Assembly: GCA_030834695.1 (NCBI GenBank)
Contig: JAUQXK010000038.1
Span: 1-64,000, forward strand
From: Desulfobacterales bacterium
GTDB taxonomy: Bacteria; Desulfobacterota; Desulfobacteria; Desulfobacterales; SpSt-501
Length of the DNA stretch: 64,000 nucleotides
Reading direction: 5' to 3'
Numbering within the stretch: the stretch's first letter is position 1; the number at the start of each line of letters is the position of its first letter. Under the pieces are notes generated by a model. That model was not told the DNA's origin and did no database searches. It saw nothing but the letters and a program-made list of their open reading frames with translations. The position numbers were made by a program, and so were the translations under genes. Shown here in pieces: positions 4,878 through 35,762 of this stretch.

Positions 4878-4890
4878 AGAAACTGACCGA

Positions 4891-6383: not shown

Positions 6384-6395
6384 AGAACAGAGACG

Positions 6396-8912: not shown

Positions 8913-8956
8913 CTTTCACGTCGGCAACACCGGTTCAAATCCGGTTGGGGACGCCA
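8913..8956 (+). repeat. Attachment site: tRNA-Glu(TTC) 3'-half, left copy
   Basis: These 44 bases reproduce the 3' half of a tRNA-Glu gene: anticodon loop CTTTCAC (anticodon TTC), T-arm ACCGG-TTCAAAT-CCGGT, acceptor strand, discriminator G and encoded CCA. No 5' half precedes it, so it is not a working tRNA. An identical 44-base copy lies at 36326-36369 in the same orientation. Integration into the anticodon loop of a tRNA gene leaves exactly this kind of 3' fragment, so I read it as an att site of an integrated element. Confidence 0.85.
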
Positions 8957-8966
8957 CCAATAAAAA

Positions 8967-9004
8967 CAAGGGCTTAGATAAATTTCTAAGCCCTTGATTT
9001 TTTT
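8967..9004 (+). terminator. Terminator behind tRNA-Glu remnant
   Basis: An 11-bp perfect stem (CAAGGGCTTAG/CTAAGCCCTTG) with an 8-base loop is followed by A and seven T. It lies ten bases after the CCA of the tRNA fragment and is probably the original tRNA-Glu terminator carried along with the att copy. Confidence 0.85.
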
Positions 9005-9158
9005 CGGCCGAAGTCGATTCCCACCCAGTTTCCCACCTCCGGCCCTGGTTTGCCCTTGTTTTTGGCCTTTATTTACGCCAAACTTTATCTGGGAAAATGT
9101 AGGGAGAGGGCGCAAGCTCTGAGGTTTTTAGAAATGCATAACAAATGGAGGGCGGGAG

Positions 9159-9959
9159 ATGAAAGTTTTTATTAGCTGGTCTGGTGATAAAAGCAAGGCC
9201 GCAGCGGAGGCCTTACGAGATTGGTTACCTCTTGTTATTCAGTCCGTAATTCCTTGGATGTCCAGGAAAGATATTGCAGCCGGAGCTAGTTGGAATAAAG
9301 CGCTTGCAAAAGAACTCGGAGAAACAAAGTATGGAATTATTTGTTTAACAAAGATGAACTTAAATGAACCTTGGATTAATTTTGAAACCGGTGCAATTTC
9401 AAAAACCATAAACGATGATGCATTCGTTTGCCCTTATCTCATTGATTTGGAGCCTGGTCAGATACCACCTGGACCCTTAGTGCAATTCCAGGCCAAAAAA
9501 GCGGATCAGGATCAAACGTTTGAATTGCTGCAGGGAATAAACAACGCAATGCCTGAAAAGGAAAAAAAAGTTCCTGAGATTAATTTGGAACGGCTTTTTT
9601 CTAAATTATGGCCCGACCTAAAGCAGAAGCTCGATGAGTTGCCGCAAGATGAAGGAGGTGAAGCTCCACTACGACAAACGGAAGATATGGTTGCGGAAAT
9701 ACTTGAAATTGTGCGCGAAATTAATAGGCCGAGAGGCCTTTTTTCCCAGCTCTCTTCAGATTTTCAATATACCCTTCCAGCAACTGTTTCATTAAAGTCA
9801 CCAGGCCTATCAGGCGCACTAGATGATATTCGAGTAGTTTTATCTTCTACTGCAAGTCCAAGTCCAAGCGAAAGTGTAAGCCCAAGTGCAAGCACAAGCC
9901 CTAGCGTAAGCGTAAAACAGGTCAAGACTAAAGCGCCTCAAGATCCTGAAGCAAAGTAA
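9159..9959 (+). CDS. TIR domain protein with Ser/Pro-rich tail
   Basis: This 266-residue protein has GGAGGGCGGGAG before its ATG. Residues 1-150 form a bacterial TIR domain: MKVFISWSGDKSK start, IPWMSRKDIAAG, GIICLTKMNLNEPWINFETGAISK with the putative catalytic Glu at position 76. Such domains in antiphage systems cleave or cyclise NAD. The C-terminal 40 residues are an unusual Ser/Pro/Thr/Val run made by imperfect six-base repeats (about 9850-9915), which may be a linker truncated before a lost effector or sensor domain. It is the first gene inside the tRNA-Glu island, so a defence role is likely but inferred. Confidence 0.85.
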   Translation: MKVFISWSGDKSKAAAEALRDWLPLVIQSVIPWMSRKDIAAGASWNKALAKELGETKYGIICLTKMNLNEPWINFETGAISKTINDDAFVCPYLIDLEPGQIPPGPLVQFQAKKADQDQTFELLQGINNAMPEKEKKVPEINLERLFSKLWPDLKQKLDELPQDEGGEAPLRQTEDMVAEILEIVREINRPRGLFSQLSSDFQYTLPATVSLKSPGLSGALDDIRVVLSSTASPSPSESVSPSASTSPSVSVKQVKTKAPQDPEAK

Positions 9960-9963
9960 TGCG

Positions 9964-10003
9964 CCCTCGCCACAAGCCCCACATTCAACGATCTCAGCCC
10001 GGC
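9964..10003 (+). repeat. Short repeat after stop codon, copy 1
   Basis: This segment shares about 30 of 38 bases with 14482-14521, including the exact core CAACGATCTC. Each copy begins within ten bases downstream of a stop codon (the TIR gene here, the GIY-YIG gene there). Function is unknown. Confidence 0.55.
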
Positions 10004-19680: not shown

Positions 19681-20736
19681 ATGAAAAACGACAGTTTTTT
19701 TCCTGAACTATCAAGAAGGCAATTCCTATCCATCACAAGGAACATGGCTATTGCCACGATTGCAGGGGGTATGCTGATGCCTGCAAGGCCACTTTGGGCT
19801 GCACCAGTCAAGGCAGTGTTAGGTGGTTTCGGAGCATCGGCCAATCCGCAACAATTCGGTAAAGCAACAGACTCCTTTCAAAAGGCTTTGGGTGCAAATG
19901 TGGAAGTTACATACGTTACCGTAAACTCGGGTGCACAAGTAGTAACTACAATTGCCGGTGGTAGCCTGGATCTATGCAACGCTGGCTCAATGCCAATTGT
20001 CGTCGGTTATGCCAATGGTGTAAAATTGAAAATAGTTTATATCCAGAAATATATTACTGACAGCGAATGCCTATGTGTGCGTAAGGGGAAGGGGATAAAC
20101 AAACTGGAGGACCTGCGGGGACGGAACATCGCCCTTCCGTTCAACACTTCGGTTCACTACGCTATGCTTGCTGCGCTCGAAACTGTTCATATGACAAACG
20201 CTGATGTAAAAATAATCGATATGAAACCAGATGCTATAGTAGCTGCATGGAAGAGGAAAGACATAGATGTCGCTTTTATTTGGATACCAATCCTGAACCA
20301 CCTCATAGATGACGGTGGCGAAATCATGATGACTACAGCTGACCTTCAGAAATATGGCGTACTGGCTTTTGACGGTATTGTTTGTAGAGACGAATTCAGT
20401 GCAAACCATCCAGATCTCGTCCTTGCCTATTTAAAAGAGTACGATAGAATCTGTAAACTCTATACAGAAAGCCCCGAAGAGGTCGTTAGCGTAACAAGCA
20501 AGTACGTTGGCATTACACCAGAACTCGCTATGGCAGTTGTGAAAGCCTTTCACCCTTTAACCCCTAAGGAAATGGCTACGAAAAAATGGATGGGACTACC
20601 CGGGGATAAGGATACTGGACTCCTGAAAACTCTAAGAAGTCAAGCAGAGTTTCTGAAGAATGCTGGTCAGTTGCCCAGAATGCCTGAAAGTTTCGAACCG
20701 GCAGTTGATGCCTCATTCCTCGCCAAAATGATCTAA
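19681..20736 (+). CDS. Taurine/sulfonate-type ABC transporter substrate-binding protein
   Basis: This 351-residue protein has GAAGGAGG before ATG. A twin-arginine export signal (LSRRQFLSI..., hydrophobic to about residue 38, AAP cleavage region) precedes an NMT1/TauA-like periplasmic fold. Recognisable parts are VTVNSGAQVVTTIAGGSLDLCNAGSMP, LRGRNIALPFNTSVHYAMLAAL and KRKDIDVAFIWIPIL. Family members capture taurine, alkanesulfonates or nitrate-like ligands; ligand identity cannot be settled here. A stem-loop separates it from the ATPase and permease genes, an arrangement that usually keeps binding-protein mRNA in excess. Confidence 0.85.
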   Translation: MKNDSFFPELSRRQFLSITRNMAIATIAGGMLMPARPLWAAPVKAVLGGFGASANPQQFGKATDSFQKALGANVEVTYVTVNSGAQVVTTIAGGSLDLCNAGSMPIVVGYANGVKLKIVYIQKYITDSECLCVRKGKGINKLEDLRGRNIALPFNTSVHYAMLAALETVHMTNADVKIIDMKPDAIVAAWKRKDIDVAFIWIPILNHLIDDGGEIMMTTADLQKYGVLAFDGIVCRDEFSANHPDLVLAYLKEYDRICKLYTESPEEVVSVTSKYVGITPELAMAVVKAFHPLTPKEMATKKWMGLPGDKDTGLLKTLRSQAEFLKNAGQLPRMPESFEPAVDASFLAKMI

Positions 20737-20743
20737 CTTGTTG

Positions 20744-20772
20744 GGGCCAGTGGCACGAAATGCTACTGGCCC
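20744..20772 (+). terminator. Stem-loop between binding-protein and ATPase genes
   Basis: GGGCCAGTgGCA pairs with TGCtACTGGCCC across a 5-base loop and TTCT follows. It begins eight bases after the stop. It is probably an attenuator or mRNA-stabilising hairpin rather than a full stop, because the next genes of the transporter follow within 30 bases. Confidence 0.65.
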
Positions 20773-20798
20773 TTCTATGTTAATTCGGGGCGCCAATA

Positions 20799-21626
20799 AT
20801 GATAATTGAACCAATTGATCTTTATTCAAGCGAACGCCGTGAAAATGCCAAAGTACGCGTCCAATCAGTCTCCAAGAGATTCGGTGAGGGTGAGGCCGAA
20901 ATTTCGGCTCTCGAACACGTCGATTTAGTTATACAAAAAAACGATTTTCTTAGTATTGTTGGCCCTTCCGGGTGCGGCAAAAGTACTCTTCTTAAAATTC
21001 TAGCCGGCTTTGAAAAACCGTCTGAGGGTGCAGTATTCATGGATAACAAACCTATATCCGGACCTAACGCCGAACGAGGTGTTGTTTTCCAGCAGGGCGC
21101 TTTATTTACATGGATGACTGTCCTCAATAATATCGCCTTTGGGCCTATGAGTTGCGGAAAACCAAGACATGAGTTACGTGATATTGCAAAACATTATATT
21201 GATTTGGTAGGTCTTGATGGGTTCGAAAATCGATACCCGTATGAGCTATCGGGAGGCATGCAACAACGCGTCGGAATCGCGAGAGCCCTTGCCAACGACC
21301 CCGAACTTCTTCTTATGGATGAACCATTTGCCGCCCTCGACCAACAAACGCGTGAGTTGCTTCAGGAGGAAATAAAGCGAATTTGGGAGAAAACACACAA
21401 AACCATTCTGTGGATTACGCATAGCATTGAAGAAGCACTATTTCTTTCTACTCATGTATTGGTTATGACAGCACGACCTGGCCGTGTTAAATCTAGTTTT
21501 ATAACCGGATTTTCCAATGCAAAAGATCATTTAGTAACTACCAGTTTGGAATTCACACAAGCGAAGCGGAAAATATTCGAACTGCTTCGTGAAGAAGCGA
21601 TCATCTCTGAAACTCAGAAAGATTAG
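20799..21626 (+). CDS. Taurine/nitrate-type ABC transporter ATP-binding protein
   Basis: This 275-residue ATPase has Walker A GPSGCGKST at residues 55-63, Q-loop VFQQGALFTWMTV, signature LSGGMQQRVGIARAL, Walker B LLLMDEPFAALD and the switch His in WITHSIEEAL. It belongs to the TauB/SsuB/NrtD subfamily that energises import with the adjacent permease. The first 17 residues precede the conserved core, so the start may be a little internal. Its stop lies four bases before the permease start. Confidence 0.92.
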   Translation: MIIEPIDLYSSERRENAKVRVQSVSKRFGEGEAEISALEHVDLVIQKNDFLSIVGPSGCGKSTLLKILAGFEKPSEGAVFMDNKPISGPNAERGVVFQQGALFTWMTVLNNIAFGPMSCGKPRHELRDIAKHYIDLVGLDGFENRYPYELSGGMQQRVGIARALANDPELLLMDEPFAALDQQTRELLQEEIKRIWEKTHKTILWITHSIEEALFLSTHVLVMTARPGRVKSSFITGFSNAKDHLVTTSLEFTQAKRKIFELLREEAIISETQKD

Positions 21627-21630
21627 ACAA

Positions 21631-22482
21631 ATGAACAATAATGATCTAACAGCACTAGAAAAATTGTTAACGCAAATTCCAGACAAATCCTGGCTGAGCG
21701 GTCACACGCGGCGCCAAGGGCTTTCTCTTCTATCATTCGCAGCTATATTACTTATATGGATCGGGCTTTCAGGTTCAGGCCTTTGGAAACCGATTGCAGA
21801 TCCACTTTTTCTGCCCTCTCCTTTTGCTGTTATAAAAACTTTCTTCAGGCTTTTAAATGAAGGATACCAGGGGACAAAGCTCTACCAACACTTCTTATTT
21901 AGTCTGTTTCGTTTCAGTGTCGCTTTCATTTTTTGCGTTGTGGTTGGATCGGCGGTAGGTTTAATGATGGGCATGAGTGAAGCAATACGGGCCTTGCTCG
22001 ATCCACCAATTGAGATTACGAGACCGATTCCAAAATTGGCAGTACTGCCACTGCTGATAATATGGTTTGGAATTGGAGAGTTGCCCAAGGTCGTTATTAT
22101 TGTTCTTACTCTATTCCCGATGATGTCGATCGCATCTATGCAAGCAGTGAAAAGCGTGAGTATAAGTAAGATTCAGGCCGCACAGTCTCTAGGCGCCAAC
22201 AAGCGCATCCTTTTTACCCGAGTCATATTGCCAGCTAGCTTGCCTGGAATCTTCACCAGTATTCGTGTGAGCTTAGGCGTTGGGGTCACAATGCTAGTTG
22301 CGGCTGAGATGATTGCCACAAGCAACGGAATTGCATGGATGTCTCTAAATGCAGCTGACTTTTTGCTCACAGACGTTGTACTTGTAGGGGTTTTAATCTT
22401 AGCAATTTTGGGTTACGGGTTAGAACAAATTGCTCGGATGATTGAAAAACGGGTGGTTCACTGGAGCGGCAAAGAAACATAA
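21631..22482 (+). CDS. Taurine/sulfonate-type ABC transporter permease
   Basis: This 283-residue inner-membrane protein starts at MNNNDLTALEK. An upstream in-frame ATG at 21589 lies inside the ATPase gene and is less likely. Six transmembrane segments and the cytoplasmic EAA loop are visible (ISKIQAAQSLGANKRILFTRVILPASLPGIFTSIR at about 180-215). The subfamily is TauC/SsuC. It completes the binding protein-ATPase-permease set, and the PLP decarboxylase that follows is probably in the same transcript. Confidence 0.9.
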   Translation: MNNNDLTALEKLLTQIPDKSWLSGHTRRQGLSLLSFAAILLIWIGLSGSGLWKPIADPLFLPSPFAVIKTFFRLLNEGYQGTKLYQHFLFSLFRFSVAFIFCVVVGSAVGLMMGMSEAIRALLDPPIEITRPIPKLAVLPLLIIWFGIGELPKVVIIVLTLFPMMSIASMQAVKSVSISKIQAAQSLGANKRILFTRVILPASLPGIFTSIRVSLGVGVTMLVAAEMIATSNGIAWMSLNAADFLLTDVVLVGVLILAILGYGLEQIARMIEKRVVHWSGKET

Positions 22483-22546
22483 AAGATGTCATAGCTATTA
22501 TACCAATAGATATAGCAACATAGATTACAGATTGAGGAGGAAATCG

Positions 22547-23788
22547 ATGGAGAGACTTTTTCACGAAAAGGGAATGAACTGGGAGGAAATAGAAAAGACA
22601 TTAAATTCTTATCGCAAGGACGACGTCGATTGGAAGCGTGGTCGGGTGCCATTATATGCCTTTTATGCAGACGATGATATATCGGAAATAGCTAAAAAAT
22701 CATACATGATGTTTTTTACAGAAAATTCTCTTGGCCACAAGGCTTTTCCTAGTGTCGCCAAGATTGAATCCGAAGTCATCCGTATGGTAGCCCAAATTCT
22801 TAATGGTGATTCCGGAGTTGTTGGTAATATGACCTCTGGCGGTACCGAAAGTATATTTATGGCAGTCAAAACGGCACGTGATTGGGCAAGAAAAATTCGT
22901 CCAGAGGTCACTGCCCCGGAATTGGTTTTGCCAAGAACCGCACACCCTGCCTTCAATAAGGCGGCACACTATTTATGCATAAAAGTGAAACGGGTAAGAG
23001 AATCATCTAATTTTCGCGCGGATATATCAGCGATGGAAGTGGCCATTAACGACAATACTATCATGATTGCTGGTTCGGCTCCGTCCTACCCTCATGGGGT
23101 CATCGATCCCATAGATGAAATAGCTAAATTGGCTTCAAAAAGAAACATTTGGTTCCATGTTGACGCATGCGTGGGCGGATGCTTGGCACCATTCGTTAAG
23201 AAGCTTGGGTATCCAGTTCCTGATTTTGATTTTTCCATTCCAGCTGTAACATCGATTTCCGCTGATCTCCACAAGTATGGATTCACCCCAAAACCAGCCT
23301 CTACAATTTTATATCGAAACGAAGACTATCAAAAATACCAAAGCTTTACTTTCGATGAGTGGCCGGGTGGGGTGTATAAAACTCAGACATTCCAAGGCAC
23401 GCGCCCAAGTGGCTCAGTCGCCGCAGCATGGGCTGTGATGAAGTATTTAGGTGAATCTGGATATCTAGAGATAGCAAATAAAATAATGAACATACGAAAG
23501 GCATTAATCTTCGGTATCAATGCAATACCTGGTCTAAAAATTTGGGGTGACCCGGATCTAAGTATTATTGGTTTTGGTTCAGATATAATTGATATTCATG
23601 CAGTAGGCGATAACATGGCCACAAAAGGATGGTTTGCTGCTCGCAACTTAGAGCCACCAGCTCTCAAACACATGTTGATGCCGGTACATGAGGTTATGAT
23701 TGATGACTATTTAAGGGACTTGAATGAGAGCGTTAATAAAGTACGTGGTGAAAAAGTTGTAGCCGAGAAACGTGAGGTAATATATTAG
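22547..23788 (+). CDS. PLP-dependent group II decarboxylase / sphingosine-phosphate-lyase-like enzyme
   Basis: This 413-residue fold-type I PLP enzyme starts at 22547 after GAGGAGG. Key residues are visible: GGTES for phosphate binding (98-102), His133 stacking on PLP in TAHPAF, Asp206 in VDACVGG and the Schiff-base Lys243 in SADLHKYGF. The closest groups are sphinganine-1-phosphate lyase-like and tyrosine/aspartate decarboxylase-like proteins. Placed 65 bp after a sulfonate-type importer, a plausible inferred role is decarboxylation or C-C cleavage of an imported amino sulfonate or amine. No membrane anchor is present, unlike eukaryotic lyases. Confidence 0.85.
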   Translation: MERLFHEKGMNWEEIEKTLNSYRKDDVDWKRGRVPLYAFYADDDISEIAKKSYMMFFTENSLGHKAFPSVAKIESEVIRMVAQILNGDSGVVGNMTSGGTESIFMAVKTARDWARKIRPEVTAPELVLPRTAHPAFNKAAHYLCIKVKRVRESSNFRADISAMEVAINDNTIMIAGSAPSYPHGVIDPIDEIAKLASKRNIWFHVDACVGGCLAPFVKKLGYPVPDFDFSIPAVTSISADLHKYGFTPKPASTILYRNEDYQKYQSFTFDEWPGGVYKTQTFQGTRPSGSVAAAWAVMKYLGESGYLEIANKIMNIRKALIFGINAIPGLKIWGDPDLSIIGFGSDIIDIHAVGDNMATKGWFAARNLEPPALKHMLMPVHEVMIDDYLRDLNESVNKVRGEKVVAEKREVIY

Positions 23789-24523: not shown

Positions 24524-26386
24524 TCATTTTAACATTTTTGAATTTTTCCAAGACAGAAAACCAATAGAAAATATTGCCAAAATACCGACTATTTCTAAAT
24601 TCTTCGAAGGGAAAACCATCAAGATTGAAGCGATTAATAGGATAAACCGTGAGGGGATGTTCAGAATACCCGCTAAATATCCTACCTTGACAGCAGCAAG
24701 CGTTATTACGCCCAAAGATGTAACCGCAACGGCTATAAGAATCTCAAGCCAGCTCCCTGTCAGTAATAGGGCAGGTTGATACACAAAAGCGAACGGCACT
24801 AAAAACCCAGCTATACCGAGCAAAAATGCCTCGATTCCTGTCGACATTGGCTCTGATTGTGCCAAATTAGCGGCTGCAAAGGCTGTAACGGCATCGGGTG
24901 GGGTGATGTCGGACAACACTGCATAGTAGAAGACAAACAGGTGCGCGGACAATGCAGGAATACCAAACTTACTCAATGCAACCGCCCCAACGCTGGCGGC
25001 GATAATATAAGAGGCGGTGGTTGGTATTCCAGTCCCAAGGACGCTCACAATTGTAAATACCAAAAGCAAACAAAATAAAAGAGAGTCGCCTGAAGCCCTA
25101 ACGATCATTGTGCTGAAAGACATGGCAATGCCGGTTTGAGTAATAACAGCGACGGTCATCCCTGCACACGCAAGAACTGCTGCAATTAGTGCACCGTTAA
25201 CCATTGTCTCCATAACGGTTTTTAGAAGTTTTTTTGGAGTGATCCATGTCCTCCGGTCCAAAAAGCTTAACAAGAGAGTTATCCAAATGGTGTGAAAAGC
25301 AGATTTAGAGGGTGAGTAGCCATAGGCCATAAAACCAATAATTGATATGAAAGGCAAAATAAAGTACGCTTTGCGAATGACCTCACGACTGTTTGGTCTT
25401 TGTTCTTTTGTAAGGGGAATTATACCACGGCGTTTAGCAATAAAATGAACCATTGATAAAATTCCCAAGTAATAAAGGATCGCTGGAATCGCAGCAACTT
25501 TGATAATCGTGAGGTAAGGGACTCCAGTAATCTCAGCCATAATAAAGGCGCCTGCTCCCATAATTGGAGGCATGATCTGCCCGCCTACACCGGCGACCGA
25601 CTCAACCGCTGCCGATTCCTTTGGGCTATATCCACACTTCTTCATCAACGGAATTGTGAAAGAACCTGTTGCGTAAACGTTGGCAACAGTCGAGCCTGAA
25701 ACTGTTCCATAAAGTGCAGATGATATAACCGCCACTTTACCTGCACCTCCTGAAGCCCAACCTGCTAACCACACAGCCATTTTAACGAGAAAGTCACCAG
25801 CACCGGCGAGTGTCATTACGCCTGCGAATAAAATGTAAACAAAGAGCAGCTCAACGGAAAGCCCAGTGAGAAACCCAAAAAGTCCATCATCCGGGTTAAG
25901 ATACAAAATCTCGGCGGCACGTTCCAGGGAAAAAGCGTGGCTATATAACATTCCTGGCCAAAACTGGCAGGTCATCAAATAAGTTAATACAACAGATACG
26001 GTTAAGGCGAACCAACGAGATATGGAACGACGAACAGCTTCAATCGCAAGAAGGGCAAACACCCATCCCAATACTGCCTCTTCCCACCGAACAGCGCTCA
26101 CTGTAAAAAAACGCTTATCTAAGCGGTAGTGACTCAATATGACGTAAGCGCAGGCAGCTAAACTGATCCCGGCGGCGATGATGTCTAAAATGCTCGGACG
26201 ACTGCTGGGCGAACGTTTTGTGGCAGGGAATAGCAAAAATACCATTGGAACCAACATCAAAAGATGCAACCCACGAAAAATCCTGGGCGTAGGCCCTCCG
26301 AAACCCGCCCAATAGTAATGAAGCAAACACGAAAGGGCCGCTGAAAAAACTGAGAAGGCATACCAACCGCCTGAAAGTTCTCTCAT
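24524..26386 (-). CDS. TRAP transporter permease, fused 4TM/12TM (DctQM type)
   Basis: This 620-residue integral membrane protein is of the fused type that works with TAXI binding proteins. The small-subunit part (about residues 1-150, four helices) is followed by the large DctM-like part with the conserved stretch GTVSGSTVANVYATGSFTIPLMKKCGYSPKESAAVESVAGVGGQIMPPIMGAGAFIMAEITG. The C-terminal ISDITPP-like stretch (YYAVLSDITPPDAVTAFAAANLA) is also typical. Length matches the family. It follows the TAXI gene by about 75 bp on the same strand and uses a sodium or proton gradient for uptake of an organic acid or amino acid. Confidence 0.93.
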   Translation of the reverse strand: MRELSGGWYAFSVFSAALSCLLHYYWAGFGGPTPRIFRGLHLLMLVPMVFLLFPATKRSPSSRPSILDIIAAGISLAACAYVILSHYRLDKRFFTVSAVRWEEAVLGWVFALLAIEAVRRSISRWFALTVSVVLTYLMTCQFWPGMLYSHAFSLERAAEILYLNPDDGLFGFLTGLSVELLFVYILFAGVMTLAGAGDFLVKMAVWLAGWASGGAGKVAVISSALYGTVSGSTVANVYATGSFTIPLMKKCGYSPKESAAVESVAGVGGQIMPPIMGAGAFIMAEITGVPYLTIIKVAAIPAILYYLGILSMVHFIAKRRGIIPLTKEQRPNSREVIRKAYFILPFISIIGFMAYGYSPSKSAFHTIWITLLLSFLDRRTWITPKKLLKTVMETMVNGALIAAVLACAGMTVAVITQTGIAMSFSTMIVRASGDSLLFCLLLVFTIVSVLGTGIPTTASYIIAASVGAVALSKFGIPALSAHLFVFYYAVLSDITPPDAVTAFAAANLAQSEPMSTGIEAFLLGIAGFLVPFAFVYQPALLLTGSWLEILIAVAVTSLGVITLAAVKVGYLAGILNIPSRFILLIASILMVFPSKNLEIVGILAIFSIGFLSWKNSKMLK

Positions 26387-26461
26387 TCAAATAAGTCCAC
26401 CGAATTTTTTTATTAATAATGAGACTGCTTTCATGAAGATGGTTCGATGATTTTAAAACTA

Positions 26462-27454
26462 TTAATTGGCCCAGCCTTTTTCCTTATAGTATTTTAATGC
26501 ACCTGGATGGGGGGGTACGCCGGGTGATCCAAGCAGTCCATTTTTTGGCTCATACACTGTGAGGCTCGGATGGACTTTGTGTAATCGCTCAACATTTTCG
26601 TTTATTGCTTTAGCTAAACGGTATGCGACAGCATCTTGCATGTCTTTGTGAACCATTATCGCACTGCCGTTGCAACACACCTGTAACGTCTCTTTGCCAT
26701 TTTCCGCCTGCGGGTATGTTCCGGCCGGAATATCACAGGGTTCAAGTCCATATTGATCCAAGTGTTTTATGACCTTTTCAGAAAAAGGAATAATTCTTAA
26801 GCTCCGCCCAACAGCTGCCTCAGTTACTGCAGCAGCGGGGGCAGCATACCATGCCCAAACAAGGTCGATGTTGCGGTCTTTGAACTGGCTAACTTGGTAG
26901 GCGTAGTTGCCCCTTGCAATGTGGTAGCCTTTACCTGAAAGACCGTCAATGTTCGTCTTGTAAACCTCTAAAATCCGCTCGAGAACATAGATCTCAGAAG
27001 CACCAGGGTGAGACATGGCAATGCGTGGTTTGGATGAACCTCCAAAAACATCATCCATGGTCTTATAAGGTGTGTCAGTACCTGCGAAAAGATGTAAGTG
27101 GTTACGAATCATATAACCACAAGCAATCAGACGCAAACTCGAATGCTTTGTTTCGTAAGGGATCTGCCCATCGACTGCAGCCTTGTTCAAAAAAGGCAGC
27201 CCGAAAGCCATATCTACTTTTTTTTCATTGAGGGCTGTCGGGTTTTGAGCTCCACCACCCGGAAGGACTTTAATGATGAGTTCTGGGTCTGCTTCTTGAA
27301 TCACGGTGCTGATTCCTGCTGCAATCGTGTACCAGCCACCTCCAACCGTGCCAGCCATCCAGGTTAAGTTGGTTTGTTCAGCAAGTGTGCTGCCGCCGGG
27401 TATGCCCAAAAGTAAAATTAAAAAAAGAGGCAGAAGCTTAGTATTTTTTCTCAT
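26462..27454 (-). CDS. TAXI family TRAP transporter solute-binding protein
   Basis: This 330-residue protein starts at MRKNTKLLPLF, fixed by AAAGGAG seven bases upstream (an in-frame start 14 codons earlier lacks one). A Sec signal peptide ends near residue 25 (STLA-EQ). The fold shows the TAXI hallmarks WMAGTVGGGWYTIAAGISTVIQ, VLPGGGAQNPTALNEKKVDMAFG and HPGALKYYKEKGW at the end. It delivers the ligand to the fused permease downstream. With an enolase-superfamily gene upstream, the ligand may be a carboxylate or amino acid derivative. Confidence 0.92.
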   Translation of the reverse strand: MRKNTKLLPLFLILLLGIPGGSTLAEQTNLTWMAGTVGGGWYTIAAGISTVIQEADPELIIKVLPGGGAQNPTALNEKKVDMAFGLPFLNKAAVDGQIPYETKHSSLRLIACGYMIRNHLHLFAGTDTPYKTMDDVFGGSSKPRIAMSHPGASEIYVLERILEVYKTNIDGLSGKGYHIARGNYAYQVSQFKDRNIDLVWAWYAAPAAAVTEAAVGRSLRIIPFSEKVIKHLDQYGLEPCDIPAGTYPQAENGKETLQVCCNGSAIMVHKDMQDAVAYRLAKAINENVERLHKVHPSLTVYEPKNGLLGSPGVPPHPGALKYYKEKGWAN

Positions 27455-27518
27455 TTTAATTCTCCTTTCTAAGTTGAAGCATGGTTTGTTTTTCACGTCC
27501 TAAGAATATGGTCATCTT

Positions 27519-28652
27519 TTAGCAAGGGTTTTCCTTTCGCATGTATTTCTCAATTCGGCTTTCATCTACATGAACACCTAAACCCGGCCCTTCTGGTATA
27601 AATACGTTGCCATTTTCATACTTGATGGACTGATCACCGATGTCTCCAGTCAGGAGCAACGGTCCAAAGAGTTCACAGCCATAATCAAGGCAAGGGACAG
27701 CTGCAGCGAATTGCAAATACGCAGCCGTCCCGATGCAGGTTTCAATCATGCAGCCGATATAAGTTCCCAGACCCGCTGCTTGAATTAGGTTATAAAAGCT
27801 CAAGGCTCCCAGTAAGCCCCCCATCTTTGTCAGTTTGATCGAAAAAATATCGGCAGCCCTATTTTTGATTAGCTCCAGACCACTGGTCATGTCATTGAGG
27901 CTTTCATCGGCCATTATTGGCGTGCGGCTCCTTTTCCGCAATTCCCTCAAGCCTTCAATGTCCCACTTGGGTAGCGGTTGTTCGCAAAAATCTAATTCAA
28001 GTTTTTCCATTTCAAAAATTGCCCTCGTGGCTTTTGGGACGTCCCAACCTTGATTAACATCAACACGCAAACTTATCCCACCTCCAAGCTCATTTCGGAT
28101 AGTTTTGATCCGCTCAATGTCGGCATCCAATTTATCTGCGCCTGCTTTCGCTTTGAAAATGTTTATACCTCTTGCCATCATTTGTTTGGCCTCAGCAAGA
28201 TCTTGACTAAGACTTCCGCTTGCCAAAGACCAGCTTAGAGGAACTTTATCTCTGAATCGGCCGCCTAATAAAGCGTAAATAGGTTGTTGATAGTACTTTC
28301 CAAAGAAATCTAAAAGAGCGAATTCGACCGCAGCTTTTGCAAATGAGTTCCCCTTGACCCTTGAATTAATTCTATTCAGGATCACTTTATATTCGAGCAA
28401 ATTACTATTTTTGAGCAAAGGGGTGATGTATCTGTCGATAGTAACTTTAATGCTCTCTGCGCTCTCTTCTCCCCATGTCGGCCCCTGCAAGGTGGCAGCT
28501 TCGCCATAGCCGATTAATCCGGACGAACTAACCAACCGGACTAAAACAAAATTTACCTCTGCAATGCTCCCAAATGACATGACATGGGGTCTTTGAAGCG
28601 GGATGTCTAAAATTATAGTCTGGAGTTCCTTAAGGTATTCAGCTTGCACCAT
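27519..28652 (-). CDS. Enolase-superfamily (muconate-lactonizing/mandelate-racemase type) enzyme
   Basis: This 377-residue protein starts at MVQAEYLKEL after AAAGGAG. The catalytic set of the muconate cycloisomerase subgroup is complete: Lys167 and Lys169 (KAKAG), metal ligands Asp198, Glu224 and Asp249 (RVDVN, FCEQPL, MADES), and the general acid/base Lys273 (IKLTK). Members racemise, epimerise or cycloisomerise carboxylate substrates through an Mg2+-stabilised enolate. The gene leads the TAXI-TRAP pair, so it likely acts on the imported compound. The precise reaction cannot be read from sequence. Confidence 0.9.
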   Translation of the reverse strand: MVQAEYLKELQTIILDIPLQRPHVMSFGSIAEVNFVLVRLVSSSGLIGYGEAATLQGPTWGEESAESIKVTIDRYITPLLKNSNLLEYKVILNRINSRVKGNSFAKAAVEFALLDFFGKYYQQPIYALLGGRFRDKVPLSWSLASGSLSQDLAEAKQMMARGINIFKAKAGADKLDADIERIKTIRNELGGGISLRVDVNQGWDVPKATRAIFEMEKLELDFCEQPLPKWDIEGLRELRKRSRTPIMADESLNDMTSGLELIKNRAADIFSIKLTKMGGLLGALSFYNLIQAAGLGTYIGCMIETCIGTAAYLQFAAAVPCLDYGCELFGPLLLTGDIGDQSIKYENGNVFIPEGPGLGVHVDESRIEKYMRKENPC

Positions 28653-28843
28653 CCGTTCTCCTTTTACCGTCAATAAAAGAAGGTTGAATATGGCCGTGAA
28701 AAACGAATGACTGGTATGAATGTTTTTGAGCGCTCGACTTTTCAAACGATGTAAGGCCGAGTGAACGAAAAGATAGCCTTTTCTGCTATCATTGAACCTC
28801 AAGGGTGTCAATCTCATACCCATTGAAAAATTCGGACAGCCGG

Positions 28844-29508
28844 GTGCGCCACGATGCTGCACAGAAGATGGGGGTTTAGCCCCTCGAAGCCGACTTACAG
28901 GAGTAGGCTTTGCGTATTCCGAGGCAAGCCGGCTTCAAACCACCTCAAGCTGCAGTGGTCAAATCCATGGTGGTGAGCGTTGAGGAAAAGTCATGGCATA
29001 GGACTGTGGCAGGTGTGAATCAAGGAGATGAGCGCAAGCAAACCACGGATGAGGTGTCGAAACAGTAGAGGCGGTGCTAAAACCGAGAATCTAGGCTGGC
29101 CCCGGGATAAGCACGGCGGGAGCTTGTGTACTGGCCGTGCGGCATACGGCATAAAGGTGGCATAACCTTGGTTTAGGCTTTTGTGCGGAACATGGGAACC
29201 CGTCAGGTGATGGCAAGAGAAAACCAGATAAATGAGGACTACAAAGGGGGAAAGTATCGATGCACCGAACGGGGTGAATCATCCTGTAGTAGTGATGAAG
29301 GTCCTGAAAGGGGGCTGGAGCGAAGGGGATTGAACCAGGTTGCAGGCGGTGGCGGCCAACCAGGAGACTGGGAGGAGATGTTCTACTTCCTGCGTCGGCT
29401 TGGGACCGCAAGGTTCCAAGATCAAGGCTGGCAGGAGCCGTATGAATTGAGAGATTCACGTACGAATCTGTGGGGGACTGGAGGTGAAACTCATCCGGTC
29501 TACCCGAC
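28844..29508 (+). ncRNA. Group II intron, apparently ORF-less
   Basis: The 5' end GTGCGCC matches the GUGYG splice-site consensus. Domain V is recognisable at 29435-29468: it begins GAGCCGTATG, has an inner GAGA-type loop and closes with CGTACG. Domain VI follows at 29469-29508 with GACTGGA pairing to TCCGGTC around a bulged branch-point A, and ends TCTACCCGAC. The 400 bases downstream of the 5' end show features usual in domain I (GAGGTGTCGAAACAGTAGAG-like segments). Only about 665 bases separate the ends and no reverse transcriptase frame exists, so domain IV is empty. Mobility would need an enzyme in trans. Confidence 0.75.
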
Positions 29509-29915: not shown

Positions 29916-29966
29916 GAAGGCTTCCACCTCCAAGTAGGTGCGCCCTGCCTGAGAGCAAAATGAAAT

Positions 29967-29987
29967 GGGCGGAAAAAGCTTCCGCCC
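29967..29987 (-). terminator. Terminator of the catabolic operon
   Basis: An 8-bp perfect stem GGGCGGAA/TTCCGCCC with a 5-base loop lies 36 bases after the symporter stop, followed on the minus strand by a moderately T-rich run (ATTTCATTTT). Confidence 0.65.
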
Positions 29988-30022
29988 ACTCTGTCTCCCT
30001 TTAACTCTAATCGATTGGATGA

Positions 30023-31438
30023 TTATGCTCTCTGCACCTCTGGCTCGACCGCTTTTGAGCTTAGGGAGCCAGCATAGGTGAGGAGGGCTGAGATTGGAAC
30101 GGCGAATAGCATTGCAGTCACCGCGGGCAATAGCCCTGAGCGGTCCAGTACGACGAAGCTGATGAACCCGCCGATCATGCCTAATAGGGCTCCTCTGCCG
30201 TTAGCCTTTTTCCAGTAGATTCCTAAGAGGACGGGGAACAGGAAGCAGGAGATTAGTCCCCCGGCTGTCATCGCTGTCATTATTGATATCAATGGCAGCG
30301 GATATAGGGCCACTATTGTTACTGTCGCGCCGATTATGCCCGCCAGGATTGTCCCCAGCCTCATGATGTGCTTTTCGCTCGCTTTGGGATTAATGAACCC
30401 TTTATAGATGTCGTTGGTTGCGGCTGCGGTGGCGGCGAATATGAGGCAGTCTGTTGTCGTCATCGTTGTCCCGAAAAGCACTGCCGCGAAAATGGCCTTG
30501 CCGGCGCGCGGCAAAAACTCGTCGATGACCCTCATCAGTGCCATGTCGGCATTTTTCAGACTCGGGTCCAGGATTGACGCGGTCAAGCCTAGCACGACTG
30601 CGGTGAAGCCTACGATTATGGCTGCCATGGCGGTGCCTGTCCCGAGGGACCTGCGGAGGCTTTTTGAGCTTTGCGTGCTCATGAACCTCATGACGGTCAT
30701 GGGGGCGACGCATCCCCATAAGGCCCAGGTCAACGCTATCCCCATTGTTGAGCTCAGCGGCATGCCTAGTTGCGCGATGGCGGGCTTGCTCTGGATTCCT
30801 GTAGCTATCAGTCCTCCGCTCGGCATGAAATAGAAGATGGCTGCGACGGCGATGACGAAGGTGCCGAGGCCGTCGAAGAGCCCTTCGGCGATGTTGGTGA
30901 TGCTGATGGCGTACATCGTGCCCAACATGATGTAGGCGATGCTCGTGAACCCGGCGATCAAGACAGCCGTCTCATAGGGGATGTCGACCAGCCAGCTGGC
31001 CAGGAGCGCGCAGGCCTTTATCTGGGGGATCACGTAAGCGCTCATGAAGATGAAGGTCAGGATGGAATATATCCCGTGCGGCCCCTTTCCGAACCTGTCC
31101 TTGAAGAAGTCGCCTAATGTGAACAGCTTTCTATCTCTCAGCGGCTTTGCGACGAGGTAGAGCGCGAGCGGGAATTGCAGCGTGAATGCTGCGGCAACCA
31201 TCGCCGCGAACGGCACTCCAAACTTATAGGTCAGGCCCACGATGCCTATGACAGAGCTGGCTGTGGCGACGTCGGCGAAAATCGCGAATGCGCCGGTGAT
31301 GGTTCCCATGAACCGGCCGGCTACCCAGAAGTTCTCTTCCGACTCTCTTGCTTTTTTTGCGTAAACGAGGCCTACTGCTACGCAGGCCCCTAAATAAAGC
31401 GCTATCGTTCCTATTTCCAGCATCCGGATGGATTCCAT
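30023..31438 (-). CDS. Sodium:solute symporter (SSS family)
   Basis: This 471-residue membrane protein has about 13 predicted helices. It shows the SSS-family sequence pattern: ENFWVAGRFMGTITGAFAIFADVATASSVIG near residues 33-65, FTLGDFFKDRFG near 108, and a conserved mid-region MLGTMYAISITNIAEGLFDGLG. Members co-transport Na+ with amino acids, pantothenate, acetate or proline. It is the last gene of the minus-strand operon 35762-30023, next to a two-helix small protein that is a usual companion of this subfamily. The cargo is presumably the substrate of the hydrolases upstream. Confidence 0.9.
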   Translation of the reverse strand: MESIRMLEIGTIALYLGACVAVGLVYAKKARESEENFWVAGRFMGTITGAFAIFADVATASSVIGIVGLTYKFGVPFAAMVAAAFTLQFPLALYLVAKPLRDRKLFTLGDFFKDRFGKGPHGIYSILTFIFMSAYVIPQIKACALLASWLVDIPYETAVLIAGFTSIAYIMLGTMYAISITNIAEGLFDGLGTFVIAVAAIFYFMPSGGLIATGIQSKPAIAQLGMPLSSTMGIALTWALWGCVAPMTVMRFMSTQSSKSLRRSLGTGTAMAAIIVGFTAVVLGLTASILDPSLKNADMALMRVIDEFLPRAGKAIFAAVLFGTTMTTTDCLIFAATAAATNDIYKGFINPKASEKHIMRLGTILAGIIGATVTIVALYPLPLISIMTAMTAGGLISCFLFPVLLGIYWKKANGRGALLGMIGGFISFVVLDRSGLLPAVTAMLFAVPISALLTYAGSLSSKAVEPEVQRA

Positions 31439-31483
31439 TAGCAGCCTCCTTCTTGCAGGGTATATCGCGGATTCAGGGTTGTC

Positions 31484-31678
31484 TTATTCCTTTTCGAAGA
31501 ACTCGCTCTTTTTGATGTAAATTAGTGCTTGAATAAGAAATAACGGGCATGCAAGAAGAAGGAGCCAAGTGCCCAGGTTCAGGCCGGAGATGATGATGCC
31601 CTTGGTTAAAGGATAAACTACCAAGGCCAGCAAGAGGTATGCTACAATCGATATGATCGCGTTTTTGACTCCGAGCAT
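31484..31678 (-). CDS. Small two-helix membrane protein, symporter partner
   Basis: This 64-residue protein has two transmembrane helices (about 9-28 and 34-53) and a charged C-terminal tail KKSEFFEKE. GGAGG-type ribosome sequence precedes the ATG. Proteins of this size and layout often sit directly upstream of SSS symporters, sometimes annotated as DUF3311-like, and are thought to be accessory subunits. I cannot confirm the family. Confidence 0.7.
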   Translation of the reverse strand: MLGVKNAIISIVAYLLLALVVYPLTKGIIISGLNLGTWLLLLACPLFLIQALIYIKKSEFFEKE

Positions 31679-31734
31679 GGTAGGGCCTCCTTTAAGTTGT
31701 AGTTAAAATCACCAGCTGTTTTTCTCCAAGGCGG

Positions 31735-32310
31735 CTATTTCTCTTCACAGGTGATCATCATCACGCATCTTTTGCCTCCCTCGCCTATGGTCGGCTCCGC
31801 CCATTCCAGCTTGATCGGGTGCGGGCTTGCGGTCCCATAGTCTCCGTAGCACATCAGTTCCTTGCAGAGCATCGCGACCTCTTCCTCGGTAGCGCCCGCC
31901 TGCTTGAAGGCCTCGACATGTGGGCAGGAGTAGAACTCTTTCGAGGCGACCTTATCGTTGAGTATCTTGTACTCTTGGTCCCATGCCAGCGTCCCGCCTT
32001 TGCTTGACAGCTTTTTCATGAAATCTTTCGGCGTCCGGATATCGCCCATCTTCTTGCCGTTGAATTCGCCCCACCGGAAGCAGGCTTCCTGGACGAGCTT
32101 GTCGGCGTCCAGTCCTTTCTCTTTCAGGACTTTCCAGACGAAATAGACGAAAAGCCCCCGCGATCCGACCAGCTTCTTGACTATTGCCTTGAAGTCCTTT
32201 ACGGGGACTGCCTCATCCAGTTTTAGCCCGTCCAGGTAGTCATTTATCTCTTTCTTGTCATCCGGATTTATCTGTCCGGAGACTGCCTTTTCCCTGTTGG
32301 TCTTTTCCAT
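31735..32310 (-). CDS. L-2-amino-thiazoline-4-carboxylate hydrolase-like protein
   Basis: This 191-residue protein starts at MEKTNREKAVSG after AAAGGAG. It resembles the ATC-hydrolase family: ACFRWGEFNG, DQEYKILNDKVASKEFYSCPHVEAFKQAG, ELMCYGDYGTASPHPIKLEWAEPTIGEGGKRCVMMI. The founding enzyme opens the thiazoline ring of ATC on the way to cysteine; many relatives have other, unknown substrates. Conserved Cys, His and Glu are visible. Together with the amidohydrolase, aminotransferase and cupin of the same operon it suggests degradation of a cyclic or N-substituted amino acid, which is inference. Confidence 0.7.
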   Translation of the reverse strand: MEKTNREKAVSGQINPDDKKEINDYLDGLKLDEAVPVKDFKAIVKKLVGSRGLFVYFVWKVLKEKGLDADKLVQEACFRWGEFNGKKMGDIRTPKDFMKKLSSKGGTLAWDQEYKILNDKVASKEFYSCPHVEAFKQAGATEEEVAMLCKELMCYGDYGTASPHPIKLEWAEPTIGEGGKRCVMMITCEEK

Positions 32311-32329
32311 CGGTTTCGCTCCTTTATGT

Positions 32330-33502
32330 TTAGATGATTGCGCCATTCTTGATAACTGTCTTGACTTTTCCGACCTGCTCCATGTCCTCTATCGGGTTCT
32401 TGTGCAGGATGACGATGTCAGCGTCTTTTCCGGCTTCGAGTGTTCCTTTCGCCTCGCTGATGCCTAACAGATCGGCAGCGTTCTTTGTCATGGATTTTAT
32501 GACTTGCATCGGCTTCATTCCGCAGGCCTGCATGCACTTGCATTCTTCCACCAGGTTCTCATGGGGATTGATAGGGCTTCCAGCGTCCGTGCCGAATGCT
32601 ATCGGGACGTTTTTCTTGACGCATTTTTTGAACCGGGGCATCTTCTCGTCCATTACCCATCTGGATGCCTTTATCATGTAGTCTGCGACGCCTTTCGCTT
32701 TTCCCTGCTCTGCCATCTGCCAGTAGGCGGCGAAAGTCGGGACGAGGTAGGTGCCTTTCTCGACCATCAGGTCCATTGCCTCTTCATTTATCAGCGTCGC
32801 GTGCTCTACCGAGCTGACTCCTGCCTTGACCGATTCCATTATGCCTTCGAGGCCGTGCGCATGGGCGGCGCTCTTCTTCCCTGCCCTTTTGGCGACATCA
32901 AAGCAGGCCTTCAGCTCTTCGAATGTCAATTCCTGGGCGCCTGGTATCTCGTCCGGTTTTCCGAGCCCTCCGGTGGCCATAACCTTGATGAAGTCTGCTC
33001 CGGAGTGGAGCTGTTTTCTAGCCCCGGCGATGCATTCGTCGGCTCCGTTCACCTCGTGTCCGGAGAAGTGGCCTCCAGTCATGAGCAGGGCCTGACCGCC
33101 GCAGATTATGTTGGGCCCTTTTACCAGTCCCTGTTTTATCGCGTTCCTGATGGCTACGACTTCGAAATGCTTGCTTCCCATATCCCGGATGGTCGTGATT
33201 CCGGCGTTCAGGATCTTTTGGGCTATGACAGCTCCCTGCAGTGTCAGGGTGTAGCTGTCTGTCTTGCCCATGTCGTTCATCGGGTGCGTGCTCGCGTTCA
33301 GGGACAGGTGGACGTGGCAGTTTATGAATCCGGGCAATACGAAGTTGCCCTTTGCTTCCAGGACAAGTTCGTCTTCGCCTGGGGATTTTTTGATTGACTT
33401 GTCTATGTCAATGATTTTCCCGTTTTCGGTCCTTATGTCGCCCTCGAATGGCTTCGAACCCGTGCCGTCTATGATTGTCGCGTTTTTTATTAAAATTTTC
33501 AT
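32330..33502 (-). CDS. Amidohydrolase (imidazolonepropionase/prolidase-like)
   Basis: This 390-residue metal-dependent hydrolase starts at MKILIKNATIIDGTG (GGAGCCGGAAGG upstream; the longer in-frame version overlaps the aminotransferase). The binuclear centre is visible: NCHVHLS at about 63-69, the carboxylated-Lys strand FIKVMATGG, SAAHAHG, VEHATLI and the last Asp in FGTDAGSP. Family members hydrolyse C-N bonds in cyclic or acylated amines such as imidazolonepropionate and Xaa-Pro dipeptides. It is separated by 19 bp from the ATC-hydrolase-like gene downstream. Confidence 0.88.
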   Translation of the reverse strand: MKILIKNATIIDGTGSKPFEGDIRTENGKIIDIDKSIKKSPGEDELVLEAKGNFVLPGFINCHVHLSLNASTHPMNDMGKTDSYTLTLQGAVIAQKILNAGITTIRDMGSKHFEVVAIRNAIKQGLVKGPNIICGGQALLMTGGHFSGHEVNGADECIAGARKQLHSGADFIKVMATGGLGKPDEIPGAQELTFEELKACFDVAKRAGKKSAAHAHGLEGIMESVKAGVSSVEHATLINEEAMDLMVEKGTYLVPTFAAYWQMAEQGKAKGVADYMIKASRWVMDEKMPRFKKCVKKNVPIAFGTDAGSPINPHENLVEECKCMQACGMKPMQVIKSMTKNAADLLGISEAKGTLEAGKDADIVILHKNPIEDMEQVGKVKTVIKNGAII

Positions 33503-33525
33503 CCTTCCGGCTCCTTTTTTCGTGG

Positions 33526-34686
33526 TTATAGGATTTTTTTCAGCCTGTTCATCGCTTCGGACAATCGGTCTACAGGGTGTGTGAGCGCGATGCGGAAATA
33601 CCCTTCTCCGTATCTTCCGTACATTGAGCCCGGTATCACCCATACCGAGATCTTATCCAGTACCTTGAAGCACCATTCTTTCGAGTCAGCCACTCCGGAT
33701 GGCAGCGGAGCCCAGATGTAGAATGTCCCTTTCGGCGCCTCCACCTCGATGCCGCAATCCTTCAGCCCTTGGACGACGACGTCCCGGCGCTCCCTGAACA
33801 TGAGGTTGCGTCGCTCCATGAATTCGTGGGAACCGGTCAGGGCCGCTATCGCCGCGACCTGCAATGGGTAGAAGATTCCCCGGTCCGAGTGGGACTTGAT
33901 TTTTGACAGGCCGCTGATGATTTCATGGTTCCCGATGACGAAGCCCGTCCTCCATCCGCAGGCGTTGAAAGCCTTGGATAATGAGTTGAACTCTATCCCT
34001 ATTTCCTTGGCTCCGTCCACCTGCAGGAAGGATGGCGCGCAATACCCGTCGAAGCATATCTCCGAGTAGGGGTTGTCGGAGATGACGGCAACTTCGTATT
34101 TGTGCGCCCAGTCCACAAGCCGGTAGTAGAAGTCCCCTGTGGCGTGCGCCGAGGTGGGGTTGTTGGGATAGTTCACCCATATCATGCGTGCCTTCCGGGC
34201 GGTCTCCGGCTTTATGGCTTCCAGGTCTGGGAGGAACCCGTTCTCCTTCAACAGTGGGACGGGTTCGATGATTCCGCCGGCTATCTTGACTCCGGCGACA
34301 TATGCCGGATAGCACGGGTCTGGCACGAGGGCGATGTCTCCCGGGTCAAGGAGACAGGTGTGGATGTGGAATAGGCCGTCGGCAGAGCCTAGAAGCGGGA
34401 GCACTTCTTTTTCCGGGTCGCTCTTTACCCCGTACTGTTTTTCGTACCATCCGGATATCGCTTTCTTTAGTGGCAGGGGGGAATAGAAGCTGGGGTAATG
34501 GTGGTTTTTGGGGTCGTAGCATGCGTCGGATAATGCTTTCCTGAACTGCTCTGGAGGCTCTACGTCCGGGTCTCCCAATCCGAGGTTTATCACGTCTTTT
34601 CCCTCGGACCTCATCCGCGTCAGTATCAGGTTCATCGCTGTTCCGAGGTAGCCTTCAAAAGTGTCTAATCGGCGTGCGAGCTTCAT
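33526..34686 (-). CDS. Class I/II PLP aminotransferase
   Basis: This 386-residue enzyme starts at MKLARRLDTFEGYL after GGGAGG. It has the aspartate-aminotransferase fold: LGLGDPDVEPP, SADGLFHIHTCLLDPGD, NYPNNPTSAHA (Asn binding PLP), ISDNPYSEI, and the PLP lysine in FNSLSKAFNACGWRTGF. It is most like LL-diaminopimelate/alanine-type transaminases. In the operon it could remove the amino group from the product released by the hydrolases. All catalytic landmarks and length are intact. Confidence 0.88.
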   Translation of the reverse strand: MKLARRLDTFEGYLGTAMNLILTRMRSEGKDVINLGLGDPDVEPPEQFRKALSDACYDPKNHHYPSFYSPLPLKKAISGWYEKQYGVKSDPEKEVLPLLGSADGLFHIHTCLLDPGDIALVPDPCYPAYVAGVKIAGGIIEPVPLLKENGFLPDLEAIKPETARKARMIWVNYPNNPTSAHATGDFYYRLVDWAHKYEVAVISDNPYSEICFDGYCAPSFLQVDGAKEIGIEFNSLSKAFNACGWRTGFVIGNHEIISGLSKIKSHSDRGIFYPLQVAAIAALTGSHEFMERRNLMFRERRDVVVQGLKDCGIEVEAPKGTFYIWAPLPSGVADSKEWCFKVLDKISVWVIPGSMYGRYGEGYFRIALTHPVDRLSEAMNRLKKIL

Positions 34687-34711
34687 CGGTTGGCCTCCCT
34701 CTCCCTGGTTT

Positions 34712-35122
34712 TTATAGGCTTTCATCTTTCTCGTATACGTTGCAGATGCAGCAGAGGAATGTGGACGGCTTGTCGCTGGTGTTTTTCATGCCGTGCGGCT
34801 CCATGCTCGGGATGTAGATTGATGTTCCCGGGCCGCATTTCTCCTTCCTCTTCAGGTCGTCGATTTTCGGGTCGAACTCCCAGCATTCGAATTCGCCGTC
34901 CAGGACATACATGGTCTGGTGGTAGAAGTGGTTGTGGATTGGGATGTAGCCTCCCGGCTGTATTGTGAAGAATCTCAGGCCGTACTCGGGATACCCGTGG
35001 CCGTCATCTCCGGATTTCGAGAGCCATCTCACGCTGGTCCCTACCACCTCCAGCTTTTTCCCCTTGTAAGGGAACTTGTCGATCTTTTTGTCCTCGCAGT
35101 TCTTCCATGAAATGACGTCCAT
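34712..35122 (-). CDS. Cupin domain protein
   Basis: This 136-residue single-domain cupin starts at MDVISWKN after GGAGAG. Cupin motif 1 is GGYIPIHNHFYHQTMYVLDGEFE (metal ligands His-x-His, His-Gln and a later Glu). Motif 2 is PGTSIYIPSMEPHGMKN. This metal-binding beta-barrel may be an isomerase, dioxygenase or sensor. Its place between the regulator and aminotransferase genes makes a catabolic or ligand-binding role likely. Confidence 0.85.
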   Translation of the reverse strand: MDVISWKNCEDKKIDKFPYKGKKLEVVGTSVRWLSKSGDDGHGYPEYGLRFFTIQPGGYIPIHNHFYHQTMYVLDGEFECWEFDPKIDDLKRKEKCGPGTSIYIPSMEPHGMKNTSDKPSTFLCCICNVYEKDESL

Positions 35123-35144
35123 CTCTTCTCTCCACACTTTTGAT

Positions 35145-35762
35145 TTATGATATCTTCATTATCCTGTCCAATGACGCCTTGATATGCGCCGATGTGGATG
35201 CGCGGAGGCTGAACTCGTCCTTGCTCTCGATAGCCTTGATTATCTCGATGGCTTCGGTGAAGAAAATCTCTTTCTTCGTGTCCTGGTGGCTGGCCAGCCA
35301 GAACCTTATGTAATGGCATAGGAGGTCTCCCAGCATCTGCGACAGTTGGCTGTTATGGGATTCCCTGTAGAGCAGGCAGTGGAACCTGTAGTCGAGCTGG
35401 AACATCTCTTTTTTGGTCGCCTCAGCGCTCAGATTCCTTATCTCCTCCTCGATTGTCTTCAGCTCCTTCAGGCCTTCCGAAGTGATGCGGTTCATCGCCC
35501 ATATATTGGCCTGCGTTTCAAGTACGGCGCGGATCTCCGTTATGTTCCTCATCCGGTTTAATGTCAGAGGGCTCACCGCGTAATGGGACCCTTGGCGGAC
35601 TACCCACTTCTCGGAATCCAGCCTGGTCAGCGCAAGTGTTACCGGGTTGCGGCTGACCCCGAACTCCTGGGCTATCTCTATCTGGTTAAGGATGCTTCCC
35701 GGCGCCAGGTCCAGCCAGATGATCTTATCCTTGAGAACTCTGTATATTTCCAAAGGGTCCAT
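35145..35762 (-). CDS. GntR family regulator, FCD domain
   Basis: This 205-residue protein starts at MDPLEIYRVLKDKI after TGAGG (an in-frame start 25 codons upstream is not needed by the domain). A winged helix-turn-helix occupies about 5-65 (NQIEIAQEFGVSRNPVTLALTRLDSEKWVV). An FCD ligand-binding domain follows, with the metal-type residues in FQLDYRFHCLLYRESHN and the final ASTSAHIKASLDRIM. It is the first gene of the catabolic operon and most likely represses it until the substrate or a metabolite binds. A TGCAT-rich, partly palindromic stretch at 35807-35836 is a candidate operator. Confidence 0.9.
   Translation of the reverse strand: MDPLEIYRVLKDKIIWLDLAPGSILNQIEIAQEFGVSRNPVTLALTRLDSEKWVVRQGSHYAVSPLTLNRMRNITEIRAVLETQANIWAMNRITSEGLKELKTIEEEIRNLSAEATKKEMFQLDYRFHCLLYRESHNSQLSQMLGDLLCHYIRFWLASHQDTKKEIFFTEAIEIIKAIESKDEFSLRASTSAHIKASLDRIMKIS

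Follow-up and report, generated by a model that had tools for sequence, protein, structure and literature searches.

The locus at positions 30023-35762 of the window (the whole stretch of 64,000 nucleotides that was analysed, from a contig of a sulfate-reducer-type bacterium of the order Desulfobacterales) raises the question of whether its genes form a single functional unit and, if so, on what kind of compound that unit acts. It consists of seven co-directional, closely packed genes on the minus strand, each lying where the original prediction had placed it, in the order FCD-type GntR regulator, cupin, class I aminotransferase, COG1228-type amidohydrolase, PF14196 protein, small membrane protein and Na+/solute symporter. 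The genes and the two elements that flank them are as follows:

29963..29991, minus strand: intrinsic terminator at the operon end, with a 13-pair stem
30023..31438, minus strand: sodium:solute symporter (SSS), 471 aa, PF00474 (SSF), 162 bits
31484..31678, minus strand: small membrane protein, 64 aa, probably two-helix, recognised by its reading frame, its ribosome site AAAGGAGG and its position
31735..32310, minus strand: PF14196 "ATC hydrolase" family protein (by Pfam), 191 aa, with a predicted V4R/TRAPP/H-NOX fold
32330..33502, minus strand: metal-dependent amidohydrolase, 390 aa, COG1228 dipeptidase/carboxypeptidase-like, PF01979 (Amidohydro_1)
33526..34686, minus strand: class I/II PLP aminotransferase, 386 aa, related to LL-diaminopimelate aminotransferases, PF00155 (Aminotran_1_2)
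34712..35122, minus strand: single-domain cupin, 136 aa, PF07883 (Cupin_2)
35145..35762, minus strand: GntR-family transcription factor with an FCD ligand-binding domain, 205 aa, PF00392 and PF07729
35807..35822, minus strand: candidate operator of GntR, ATGCAGTATGCATGCA, 16 bases, 44 bases upstream of the GntR start

Tight spacing, ribosome sites and common codon use had been taken to mean that the seven genes act as one regulon, and each of these observations was confirmed. Neighbouring genes are separated by about 19 to 56 bases, and AGGAGG or a similar Shine-Dalgarno-like sequence precedes all seven starts. The six larger genes have a GC3 of 0.68-0.77 (0.58 for the gene of the 64-aa protein), and in codon use each of the six is closest to the other operon genes when set against seven host genes on contigs C119 and C122 or against the TRAP/TAXI/MLE block of the same window. 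A strong terminator follows 30-60 bases past the symporter gene, the last of the operon. At the other end, the exact word ATGCAGTATGCATGCA occurs once in the 5.6 Mb source genome and once in the congener G002, where it lies upstream of the orthologous GntR gene (54% identical, at G002:C24). The reversed control pattern gave no match, and the longest word common to the two upstream regions after 150 dinucleotide shuffles was 11 bases, against the 16 observed; the word was not found at the GntR gene of G143. We consider ATGCAGTATGCATGCA a probable GntR operator at the regulator's own promoter and, judging from the sequence, the placement of operator and terminator around the operon is not due to chance. 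Together with the common codon use, these two elements support the view that the genes are one transcription unit.

The window is a mosaic in GC content (36-54% left of 30 kb, 52-55% across the operon, and 59-66% past 52 kb), and for this reason the seven genes were probably acquired as one unit. A TRAP-TAXI transporter and a muconate-cycloisomerase-family enzyme (TIGR02534, above cut-off), both of low GC3, are encoded at 24524-28655. This block was considered as a part of the operon and rejected, since its GC3 is 0.43-0.45 versus 0.68-0.77, a group II intron lies between, and the terminator closes the operon; it is a separate catabolic island. The intron pieces, on the plus strand at 28870-29508 (RF01999 at 28870-29014 and RF00029 at 29433-29508), together cover about 640 bases from first to last, and no intron-encoded protein lies between them. 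Elsewhere in the window, positions 1-10000 hold a mobile-element-like block that encodes DUF932, a TIR-domain protein and a D12 adenine methyltransferase, part of it possibly defence-related, and at 19681-23788 a PLP decarboxylase-like gene comes after NMT1-type ABC transporter genes, a further possible uptake-and-use island.

Of the enzymes, the amidohydrolase gives the clearest indication of chemistry. Its putative metal ligands H63, H65, K173, H214, H234 and D306 are all conserved and are invariant in the family alignment, so that the HxH, Lys, His, His, Asp metal site of COG1228 is complete. The closest curated model, that of Xaa-Pro dipeptidase (NF051886), scores 293 bits, under its equivalog cut-off of 500, and the solved relatives comprise Cc2672, the Sgx enzymes and ochratoxin hydrolases/ochratoxinase (phmmer E values of 1e-54 to 1e-64). 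Dipeptidases, arginine carboxypeptidases and ochratoxin hydrolases are the closest kin of the protein; substrates have been tabulated (PMC11342369). An amide bond to an amino acid is its most likely target, although COG1228 amidohydrolases are catalytically diverse. Relatives within the class share at most 39% identity with it. The aminotransferase scores 467 bits with the LL-diaminopimelate aminotransferase model TIGR03540 (equivalog cut-off, 593) and stays under the curated cut-offs of every model shown. Its clade, at 68-74% identity, comprises five loci, the window included, and at four of these the cupin gene lies directly upstream, the locus on contig C122 being without it.

The cupin has the invariant residues His63, His65, Gln69 and His110, and its structure model resembles TM1459 and RemF; relatives with 57-74% identity were found in 30 of the 251 class genomes, mostly without other operon genes. 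Both the helix-turn-helix and the FCD domain of the GntR protein were matched by Pfam, which makes it an FCD-type member, and orthologs with 54-55% identity are present at G143:C112 and G002:C24. The symporter is PanF-like, scoring far under the PanF curated cut-off, and no relatives of it at E<=1e-30 were found in four related genomes. The 64-aa protein has no Pfam match; another PF14196-SSS pair (L027) carries a DUF485 small membrane protein in the corresponding place, and the 64-aa protein is likely an accessory subunit of the symporter.

The PF14196 protein is the most ambiguous component. Its Pfam match is marginal (29.2 bits versus a gathering cut-off of 28.1). The structure predicted for it has an AF2 pLDDT of 93 and matches a TRAPP Bet3-type chain in Foldseek (E = 6e-4); with VIA-align, the predicted model gave a Z of 9.9 over 144 residues with an rmsd of 4.3 for the Bet3-type chain, and a Z of 8.1 for MopR. 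As the alignment profile found no match in the PDB, the V4R/TRAPP/H-NOX fold, predicted with high confidence, rests on this model. A kinship of HNOB, V4R and ATC hydrolase has been reported from sequence, and a purified Pseudomonas L-ATC hydrolase is cited as the namesake of PF14196 (Galperin et al. 2018, PMC5847659). Five residues, R51, C129, C149, D157 and C182, are invariant in 19 diverse PF14196 sequences and resemble a metal or active site. The window protein falls within a divergent clade marked by a CPH motif, His131 and one inserted residue. The zinc site of DmpR is formed by Cys151, Glu172, Cys177 and Cys185 (PMC7264223), and a zinc tetrad of this type was considered for the window protein. 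The arrangement E144-5-C149-8-D157 mimics its spacing, but a single predicted helix contains both C149 and D157, and in most relatives the spacing is 7. The fold also includes pure ligand-binding domains, and the protein may either hydrolyse its ligand or only bind it; the separate GntR gene that accompanies PF14196 both in the window and at L025 argues that it is not itself the regulator. The ring opening proposed in the original prediction finds no support beyond the family name, given the marginal Pfam score and the ligand-binding domains that share the predicted fold; that the operon includes a true ring-opening step is possible but appears rather doubtful to us.

The neighbourhoods of these genes were then surveyed in other genomes. 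Genes for PF14196 of this form are uncommon: at the limits used, and with the source genome counted, they were found in 3 of 389 class genomes and 3 of 395 phylum genomes. The clade of the window protein has four members (the window, L017/L025, L012 and L003/L013), each adjoining a transporter: respectively an SSS symporter, an SSS symporter in the order PF14196-GntR-SSS-AstE/AspA deacylase (the Bacillota-side locus L025), an NhaC-type antiporter and, as judged from the sequences, a His-type ABC transporter. At five loci, an LIV-type ABC operon has a gene from another PF14196 branch at its end, and in three of these cases a URO-D-family gene comes before it. The order LIV transporter, URO-D-family gene, PF14196, followed by a shikimate-kinase-like gene, is seen in three genomes (L053, L054 and L055), with a sugar-kinase-like gene inserted in it at L053, and suggests that methyl-transfer or decarboxylation chemistry is linked to PF14196. 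At L026, L030 and L031, no obvious transporter adjoins the PF14196 gene.

Compilation of the loci holding other parts of the set revealed that (i) contig C119 of the source genome has an M20 deacylase, a cupin that shares 65% identity with that of the window, an LIV transporter and a paralog of the PF14196 protein, an amidohydrolase (36-38% identity to the window's) and a Dpp transporter being divergent from these genes, (ii) G143 (L099) has a Dpp peptide ABC transporter, cupin, aminotransferase and GntR together, (iii) G005 (L054) has the order cupin-aminotransferase-LIV transporter-PF14196, and (iv) G002:C24 (L056) has GntR divergent from a decayed aminotransferase and an LIV-type ABC transporter, with a PF14196 gene at the end. 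Amide hydrolases of three unrelated folds thus stand beside the gene set (COG1228 amidohydrolase, M20 and AstE/AspA), all from families cleaving N-acyl or peptide bonds of amino acids. The GntR, cupin and aminotransferase genes are a real linked cassette and, since they travel together, the gene set is not a random pile-up. Independent occurrence of the families in relatives, which the original prediction had named as evidence against itself, was accordingly a divided result: relatives of the cupin and the amidohydrolase do occur without the rest, but GntR, cupin and aminotransferase are linked. The survey shows a modular system in which PF14196 is found with transporters of unrelated types and, at several loci, also with unrelated amide hydrolases; the full seven-gene set was found at no surveyed locus other than the window. 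Plasmid searches yielded one weak match for the cupin and none for the PF14196 protein, viral contigs gave no matches, and a single scan of genome contigs returned two relatives.

We propose, with a probability of roughly 0.6, that the operon is an inducible catabolic system for an N-blocked amino acid, be it an N-acyl, dipeptide-like or cyclic derivative. The direction of the pathway, the class of its substrate and the order of its steps are what we infer. Without substrate, the GntR/FCD protein would occupy ATGCAGTATGCATGCA and block its own promoter, from which a ligand would free it. The SSS symporter with its small subunit would import the small N-blocked compound, whether an N-acyl amino acid, a dipeptide-like molecule or a cyclic amide; the binuclear-metal amidohydrolase would split the C-N bond to give a free amino acid, and the aminotransferase would convert this to a 2-oxo acid that feeds energy metabolism. 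The PF14196 protein would act on or hold the imported ligand, perhaps turning a cyclic form into an open one. The cupin would be a small metal protein, perhaps isomerising an intermediate. Support for the import, C-N hydrolysis and transamination put forward at the outset comes from separate loci at which PF14196, the cupin or the aminotransferase is found with transporters and with amide hydrolases that have other folds. Counting against the catabolic reading are the single occurrence of the seven-gene set, the other contexts of most cupin relatives, the marginal PF14196 match, the catalytic diversity of COG1228 amidohydrolases, the absence from the seven genes of any enzyme for steps beyond the 2-oxo acid, and the failure to find the operator word near the GntR gene of G143.

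An alternative is plain scavenging of dipeptides or N-acyl amino acids, with no ring chemistry, in which the PF14196 protein would be a V4R-like ligand carrier or chaperone whose ATC hydrolase name misleads. We regard this as possible, though unlikely: it agrees with the match of the predicted fold to TRAPP Bet3 and to the phenol sensor domains of MopR, PoxR and DmpR, with the kinship of HNOB, V4R and ATC hydrolase (PMC5847659), and with the Dpp transporter and the M20 and COG1228 peptidase-like enzymes among the sister-locus neighbours, whereas a purified L-ATC hydrolase gave the family its name (PMC5847659) and the Cys, Asp and Arg residues are invariant across the 19 sequences, as would be expected of an active or metal site. 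The opposite direction, a biosynthetic or detoxification cluster with the cupin as cyclase and the aminotransferase working forward, could draw on the resemblance of the cupin model to the polyketide cyclase RemF, but the operon has an importer, an FCD-type regulator and a hydrolase, and neither carrier protein, ligase, synthetase nor exporter, and we think it highly improbable.

Two known routes were also weighed. Membership in PF14196 would suit the known route by which 2-amino-thiazoline-4-carboxylate becomes L-cysteine, or some direct variant of that route; an M20 carbamoylase and a recognisable racemase are, however, absent from the seven genes, the PF14196 protein falls in the divergent clade, and hardly any weight can be given to this identification. 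Catabolism of an ectoine-like compatible solute, in which an ectoine relative would undergo ring opening, deacylation and transamination, is very unlikely: the logic is the same, an Na+ symporter is present and the sister-locus deacylases resemble the DoeB2 and EutE/DoeB models, though far under cut-off, but the operon has no M24 ectoine hydrolase, DoeB or MocR-type EnuR, and scores do not reach the curated cut-offs.

Catabolism of an N-blocked amino acid, the reading that we prefer, allows a bolder and more speculative extension, to which we give a small chance: the PF14196 proteins of the window clade (CPH, His131) may be transporter-linked V4R-fold hydrolases opening cyclic amino-acid derivatives, working with interchangeable amide hydrolases and the GntR-cupin-aminotransferase cassette in an undescribed modular catabolic pathway of anaerobes. 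Should the V4R-fold proteins prove to be enzymes, a catalytic branch would be added to a fold known chiefly for sensing and trafficking. A testable substrate class is now available for PF14196, a family that takes its name from a single enzyme and has otherwise received little study, and likewise for the conserved cupin family of Desulfobacterales; the common operator and the paralogous loci in one genome make the pathway quickly decidable by experiment.

Comparison with known systems places each component. The amidohydrolase shares the TIM-barrel family and the full binuclear metal site of the COG1228 prolidases and carboxypeptidases (Cc2672, Sgx, ochratoxinase), but falls under the curated Xaa-Pro dipeptidase cut-off. 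With TM1459-type cupins, the operon cupin shares the fold and the His-based metal site, its Gln69 sitting about where, as we take it, TM1459 has His58; we know of no operon context of such cupins that matches the one here. The PF14196 protein resembles the V4R sensor domains of MopR, PoxR and DmpR and TRAPP Bet3 in predicted fold (Z of about 8-10), but differs from them in its sequence (about 10% identity), in its own invariant Cys/Asp pattern and in having no attached DNA-binding or AAA+ domain. By Pfam score, a PF14196 protein is common to the operon and the Pseudomonas L-ATC hydrolase pathway, in contrast to the racemase and M20 carbamoylase, which the operon lacks, and to the amidohydrolase, aminotransferase, cupin and symporter, which are not in that route; the PF14196 clades diverge as well. 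Ectoine/hydroxyectoine catabolism (EutD/DoeA, EutE/DoeB and EnuR) likewise combines import, C-N hydrolysis, transamination and a GntR-superfamily regulator, but the operon relies on other hydrolytic enzyme families and on an FCD rather than a MocR-type regulator. In the open papers, which were searched by family name only, this combination and its exact substrate are, as far as searched, undescribed; all enzyme types in the operon are already known, and any novelty would lie in their combination.
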